Assembly (NCBI GenBank): GCA_003222385.1
Contig: QHVV01000080.1
Coordinates: 20,129 to 60,942, forward strand
Direction: 5' to 3'
Origin: Acidobacteriota bacterium
GTDB lineage: Bacteria; Acidobacteriota; Thermoanaerobaculia; UBA5066; Gp7-AA6
Length of the DNA stretch: 40,814 nt
Of this stretch, positions 40,550-40,814 are shown piece after piece. The stretch's first letter is position 1. Each line of letters starts with the position of its first letter. Both the position numbers and the translations under genes were made by a program. The notes beneath the pieces were generated by a model. That model ran no database searches. It was given only the letters and a program-made list of their open reading frames with translations, and was not told the origin of the DNA.

Positions 40550-40814
40550 TCAGCCGAACTCGTCCGATTCGGGATCCCAGAAAGGCCCCTCGAGCCCGAT
40601 TCCCGCGAAGATCCGGCGGATCTCGTCGGGCTGCGGCCGGCGCGCGCCGGGCGTCAGCCGGGTGTCGTACCAGGCCACGGCGCGGCGCCACAGCTGGTCG
40701 AGCGAAAGGATCGGTCGCCTCGGGATCCCGCGCTCCCGGCACCAGGCGCCCACGCTTTCCTCCGACCGGAAGATCGTGCTTCAGGTGTAGACGAGGTCCG
40801 CCCACCACTTCGCG
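40550..40814 (-). CDS. Organomercurial lyase (MerB)-like protein with predicted selenocysteine, C-terminal part
   Basis: The frame enters at the right edge as AKWWADLVYT, meets an in-frame TGA (40783-40781), and continues STIFRSEESVGAWCRERG and a conserved-looking tail (LSLDQLWRRAVAWYDTRL, then IGLEGPFWDPES) to TGA at 40552-40550: 88 codons including both TGAs. As I recall the MerB-like (alkylmercury lyase) family, its C-terminal part has WW-DD-(I/V)-(F/Y)-T-C-S-T-I ... FRSEE ... W, with Cys where TGA stands. In MerB proper this position corresponds to Cys159, a catalytic residue with Cys96 and Asp99. Coding character on both sides of the TGA is intact, so selenocysteine is the best reading. 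A nonsense mutation is the alternative. The N-terminal part, with Cys96, is outside the window. Confidence 0.7.
40751..40778 (-). promoter_or_regulatory. Predicted bacterial SECIS element
   Basis: On the mRNA, starting 3 nt after the UGA, an outer stem CACG/CGUG (4 bp) and an inner stem UCUUCC/GGAGGA (6 bp, one G-U) are separated by a small asymmetric loop (A opposite AAG) and closed by the tetraloop GGUC. Bacterial SECIS elements need a hairpin just downstream of UGA with G/GU in the apical loop for SelB binding. Here the loop G is 14 nt after the UGA, slightly nearer than the usual 16 or more. Confidence 0.55.

Follow-up and report, generated by a model that had tools for sequence, protein, structure and literature searches.

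At the right-hand end of an Acidobacteriota contig, a minus-strand frame resembling the organomercurial lyase MerB runs through an in-frame TGA. Does this codon end a gene, mark a decaying one, or encode selenocysteine (Sec) in the active site of an enzyme, and what might such an enzyme act on? The window, the whole 40,814-nucleotide stretch of DNA analyzed here (G000:C132:20129-60942), shares its right edge with the end of its contig (C132, 60942 bases). The MerB-like gene leaves the contig at this end, with no rightward extension of the frame within the assembly. The first-pass annotation had described one continuous minus-strand frame across a TGA at 40783-40781, and translation of 40550-40813 confirmed it: from 40813 to 40550 the frame reads AKWWADLVYT-U-STIFRSEESVGAWC...PESDEFG-stop, or in full, with U at the in-frame TGA, AKWWADLVYT-U-STIFRSEESVGAWCRERGIPRRPILSLDQLWRRAVAWYDTRLTPGARRPQPDEIRRIFAGIGLEGPFWDPESDEFG-stop. 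These 87 codons plus stop (40550..40813, minus strand) constitute the 3' part of a gene that we call Sec-MerB. The terminal TGA stop lies at 40550..40552 (minus strand), and in close relatives the protein likewise stops near this point, following FWDPESD. The fragment expected from a standard gene caller is a 67-amino-acid ORF starting with GTG at 40753 (40550..40753, minus strand), which is present in the ORF list just as the annotation had stated.

To place the in-frame TGA (40781..40783, minus strand) in an evolutionary context, we searched 61 related genomes with the fragment, and 149 genomes of the class (Thermoanaerobaculia) and 396 of the phylum (Acidobacteriota) with profiles. A contig scan yielded one locus, and the remaining relatives came from the whole-genome profile searches. 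Six other genomes matched the fragment (E<=9.1e-14), five with one internal TGA and one, G006, with none. A Thermoanaerobaculia MAG (CALZIK010000025.1) supplied a full-length close relative, 67% identical over its best segment, and the full-length relative L012 is 67-70% identical to the window fragment. Overall, a UGA occupies the same column in 31 genomes, 22 in the class and nine more in the phylum, spanning many families of the class as well as other parts of the phylum. The column and the residues before it read YTU, FTU, FNU or YNU in these relatives, and Cys stands there in G006 (codon TGC), G066, G091, G072 and G461. Homologues thus carry Sec or Cys throughout, as the first-pass annotation had anticipated, with Trp in G300 as the single exception in the alignment. 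The Sec genes contain no internal stop besides the Sec UGA, and the further stops that would mark a pseudogene are absent from the intact full-length relatives, which also keep the equivalents of Cys96 and Asp99.

The window gene is 70% identical to its nearest relative (dN 0.18 and dS 0.68 over ~84 codons aligned across the TGA). Its changes fall mostly at third codon positions (10, 16, 32; dN/dS ~0.27), suggesting that purifying selection acts on both flanks of the TGA. Because homologues in many other genomes have a TGA in the same column, and given this dN/dS, an open frame across the TGA is far beyond chance. The alignment shows the UGA to be a conserved, predicted Sec/Cys position homologous to Cys159 of MerB, and we rejected a plain stop or a pseudogene on grounds of this conservation. 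Two groups of homologues deviate from the common pattern. In L095 (G300:C12:54973-55626), the Trp codon is one base away from TGA and the Cys96 region is altered; the active site has possibly been lost. In the Cys homologues L058, L059, L061 and L098, CxWC replaces CxWD, placing Cys at the Asp99 site; these genes may form a further branch, possibly with different chemistry.

The RNA past the UGA can fold, as judged from its base pairing, into a GGUC-loop hairpin of the bacterial SECIS (bSECIS) type. In the relatives the hairpin is UUCUUCC-GGUC-GGAAGAA, with stems of 6-7 bp and an exact GGUC apical loop that starts 19 nt past the UGA in 20 of the 21 examined. The window counterpart, UCUUCC-GGUC-GGAGGA (40758..40773, minus strand), has a 6-bp stem and the same loop. 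A published review models the bSECIS as a stem of 4-16 bp capped by a loop of 3-9 nt; G stands in the first two loop positions, and G or U often comes next. The window hairpin and those of the relatives agree with the model in both loop and stem. The same model places the loop 16-37 nt from the UGA, a distance obeyed by most, not all, bSECIS according to the review. In the window copy this distance is 13 nt and falls short of the range, six nucleotides between the UGA and the hairpin being deleted relative to all relatives examined. The GGUC apical loop is that of the SECIS in the E. coli formate dehydrogenase (fdhF) mRNA.

Pairing in the stem appears to be maintained among the relatives. The outer stem pair covaries between C-G and U-A (Fisher p=0.003), and the closing pair, once the double-Sec genes described below are added, is C-G in 19 sequences and U-A in 16. 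The switch at the closing pair turns an Arg codon into Trp, and the accompanying change in a Ser codon is silent. Two-sided pair changes numbered 22, where shuffles gave 7.7 and slid controls 0-1; these counts are partly inherited. The Cys members G006, G066 and G091 have no such hairpin, and a fourth, G072, has a different one. The free energy of the hairpin is not exceptional (z ~-0.7), and Rfam contains no model matching it. The conserved FRSEE peptide past the active site seems to result largely from the SECIS hairpin, and thus appears to be a case of protein sequence shaped by RNA structure.

A selenoprotein gene would also need a host able to decode it, and the search for selA, selB, selC and selD proposed in the annotation recovered all four in G000. 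This genome encodes two tRNA-Sec genes (73.6 and 72.5 bits, anticodon UCA), SelB (324 bits), SelA (462 bits) and SelD (250 bits), the last with an in-frame TGA of its own. Tallies of tRNA-Sec and SelB over the 61 genomes counted high-scoring matches only, as other tRNAs and translation GTPases also match at low score. The two tRNA-Sec genes (L067:917-1010 and L068:951-1046) differ from each other, one having an unusual acceptor stem and lying on a 3.7-kb contig; the pair reflects either a second gene or a contaminant contig. The selD gene with the in-frame TGA (G000:C76:2899-3829; L081, L082) falls into two parts in different frames, which suggests an assembly indel. It is hardly credible that the TGA of the window gene is an ordinary stop followed by a relic or a separate small protein. 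Standard callers do end the gene at the TGA, and a GTG start is available at 40753, but the same TGA recurs in the genes of 31 genomes, homologues carry Cys in its place, the protein is conserved on both sides, and the SECIS-like hairpin is accompanied by complete Sec machinery.

Granting that the family encodes real selenoproteins, the window copy could still be decaying, or misassembled near the contig end. The six-base deletion, which places the loop 13 rather than 19 nt from the UGA and is found in no relative examined, may be a misassembly close to the contig end, a variant that the gene tolerates, or a sign of decay. Contig C132 ends only 31 nt upstream of the TGA, and the split frames of selD hint at assembly indels elsewhere in G000. 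However, the deletion keeps the frame, the 6-bp GGUC hairpin is still present, and third-position changes dominate with dN/dS ~0.27, so that we regard a defective copy as unlikely. The missing 5' half may also be at hand. When G000 was searched with the N-terminal half of L012, FDTRVKTAIYRRVVETARAPGVAEIAAALAAPPEEIRG was recovered at G000:C122:1-115 (L129; minus strand, E=0.0049, 46% identity). This match runs off the left end of contig C122, placed and oriented as expected for the missing 5' end. Despite the modest E-value, we favor this assignment because a match in the right orientation at a contig end is unlikely by chance: C122:1-115 is probably the 5' end of the window's own gene, with C122 adjoining C132. 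The gap between the two contigs would comprise ~100 codons (~300 bases), and the Cys96/Asp99 part of the window gene would fall there.

We next turn to the family to which the encoded protein belongs. L012 matches the Pfam MerB model PF03243 with 108.6 bits (E=2.6e-31; gathering score 27 bits), with 8/8 rows matching at E<=1. The window fragment alone scores 19.3 bits (E=0.0011), below the gathering score because it is truncated; accordingly, a PF03243 search of G000 returned nothing at E<=0.001, an outcome that reflects the low score of the fragment and not absence of the gene. A profile search of the PDB with the full-length relatives recovered MerB2 (5c17, E=1.3e-20) and MerB (3f2g/1s6l), and their catalytic Cys aligns with the Sec column, within TCK in 5c17 and FCS in the C160S mutant 3f2g. 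The first-pass annotation had aligned the TGA motif with the Cys159 region of MerB-like proteins, and this search bears the alignment out. Full-length Sec relatives combine an N-terminal winged-helix domain with a MerB domain, and their NCxWD motif supplies the equivalents of Cys96 and Asp99; Asp99 is kept in nearly all Sec members (Glu in G094). An AF2 model of L012 (pLDDT 96) gave 11 Foldseek matches at E<0.001, all of them MerB chains (best TM 0.69/0.75). The N-terminal domain also gives weak scores with GntR and other HTH models.

At the level of curated families, the scores are 68.1 bits against the NCBIfam MerB model NF009710 (cut-off 193 bits) and 56 bits against NF033555 (cut-off 200 bits), and L012 reaches 46.7 bits against the SaoL model NF040728 (cut-off 140 bits). 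In the single-Sec members, U is preceded by T, N or A, and the CU motif of SaoL is absent; SaoL membership was rejected on both the NF040728 score and the motif. Since these scores lie far below the NCBI MerB and SaoL cut-offs, the window gene is, by its sequence relationships, a member of a distinct Sec-MerB branch, apart from curated MerB and SaoL.

What would such an enzyme do? The neighbors of Sec-MerB genes that we examined include no mer gene and no shared gene, except for AraC-type regulators common to two loci. MerA exceeds its cut-off in 15 of the 149 class genomes and in none of the 22 with Sec-MerB; the tested link between the two was not found, and the lack of overlap is itself not significant (chance of zero overlap = 0.08). 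The absence of mer neighbors and of MerA speaks mildly against activity on mercury, and the lack of this context for mercury leads us to infer a carbon-metal(loid) lyase role. We conclude that the window probably contains the 3' part of a MerB-superfamily selenoprotein gene with Sec at the Cys159 position, encoding a putative organometal(loid) lyase. Its natural substrate is probably an organometal(loid) and need not be an organomercurial. The annotation's proposal that selenium replaces the catalytic sulfur stands as far as the alignment of the Sec column with MerB Cys159 goes.

The MerB analogy and the retention of Asp99 point to a lyase mechanism. SelB with Sec-tRNA(Sec) would decode the in-frame UGA. 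Cys96 and Sec159 would then jointly clasp a soft metal or metalloid borne by an organic group, and Asp99, as in MerB, would donate a proton to release the hydrocarbon. At neutral pH the selenolate would be ionized, binding and attacking soft centers faster than a thiolate would.

A selenoprotein of the same structure that is no lyase is possible, though we favor it less: Cys96 and Sec159 could form a selenenylsulfide, the protein serving in redox catalysis, in metal(loid) scavenging or as a winged-helix sensor. Redox catalysis is the presumed role of most known bacterial selenoproteins (PMC9312934). The weak scores of the N-terminal domain against GntR and other HTH models, the absent mer context and the replacement of Asp99 by Cys in some Cys relatives (CAWC) point the same way. 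On the other hand, ordinary MerB also has an HTH-like domain, and nearly all Sec and all double-Sec members retain Asp99, the residue on which proton transfer in the lyase reaction depends. Selenium has a high affinity for mercury. This affinity, together with the preserved equivalents of the Cys96/Asp99/Cys159 triad, would suit a true organomercurial lyase acting on methylmercury, in which selenium speeds the attack and Hg(II) is passed to low-molecular thiols instead of MerA. We consider this rather doubtful, as MerA is above its cut-off in 0/22 genomes, mer neighbors are absent, and the very tight binding of Hg to Se should hold back product release. The organometal(loid) lyase remains our preferred reading.

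The low-scoring matches of the first profile revealed a separate MerB clade with two UGAs, comprising 16 full genes (L063, L064, L065, L066, L070, L071, L103, L106, L107, L115-L120 and L128). The first UGA lies at the Cys96 site (AUxxD), with Asp99 kept in 16/16, and the second at the Cys159 site, where Y or F precedes U (e.g., FYU or DFU) and FFWSEEHA follows. No Cys version was seen among these 16 genes. Each UGA is followed by its own hairpin: the first is GCCCUU-CGUGC-AAGGGC, two of whose stem pairs show compensatory changes, and the second is of the GGUC type, 19 nt on. The clade is supported (100/97), with long branches that leave its placement among MerB proteins unsure. Its members score 47 bits against Pfam MerB, and a structural model folds as MerB (Foldseek E down to 5.7e-13). 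A double-Sec member reached no NCBI model at its cut-off (SaoL NF040728, 39.1 bits vs 140), and G000 has no double-Sec copy at E<=1e-5. We tentatively suggest, with somewhat less than even confidence, that Acidobacteriota harbor mono-Sec (Cys159) and di-Sec branches of the MerB fold that act as lyases for a non-mercury organometal(loid), outside any mer system. If true, the di-Sec branch would present a MerB-type metal site of two selenolates and one carboxylate.

Gene callers shorten the Sec-MerB enzymes and so miss them. Cys96, Asp99 and Cys159 are treated as essential in MerB (PMC8261052, PMC4525700); the Cys159 equivalent is lost when the TGA is taken for a stop, and searches that need Cys159 would therefore miss such genes. 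A mer-gene survey of some 80,000 bacterial genomes lists no MerB in Acidobacteria (PMC8261052). The Sec-MerB family would offer naturally occurring mono- and di-seleno forms of a Cys/Asp/Cys active site that has been studied in depth, making the effect of selenium on metal-carbon cleavage and product release directly testable.

Compared with known systems, Sec-MerB resembles MerB (PF03243; NF033555, NF009710; PDB 1s6l, 3f0o, 3f2f) in its fold, its winged helix and the position of the third catalytic residue, and the full-length Sec relatives share Cys96 and Asp99. It differs in having Sec for Cys159, a longer C-terminal tail (AWY...FW) and no mer operon, and in scoring 56-68 bits against curated cut-offs of 193-200. 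The closest solved structure is Bacillus megaterium MerB2 (5c17; Foldseek E=2.8e-13), whose catalytic Cys aligns with the Sec; MerB2 has Cys and not Sec, shares 24% identity, and carries Ser at the Asp99 position of Sec-MerB. The hairpin resembles the E. coli fdhF-type SECIS in being small, following the UGA and exposing a GGUC apical loop, and the window copy differs in its shorter spacing of 13 nt. SaoL (NF040728; Haft and Gwadz 2023), a MerB-like organometallic lyase selenoprotein with a CU motif as listed in PMC13188914, is likewise MerB-like with one Sec, but Sec-MerB, at 47 bits, stays below the SaoL cut-off of 140 bits, and its U follows T, N or A instead of the C of the listed CU motif. 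Among the predicted selenoproteins listed in PMC7435645 is an "Organic mercuric lyase MerB2", comparable here by name alone and an earlier prediction of Sec in a MerB-like protein. Sec in MerB-like proteins is thus already known from the entries for SaoL and MerB2 (PMC13188914, PMC9312934, PMC7435645); what appears new, as far as we have seen, is a separate Cys159-Sec branch in a phylum listed without MerB, and a branch in which both catalytic Cys are Sec.
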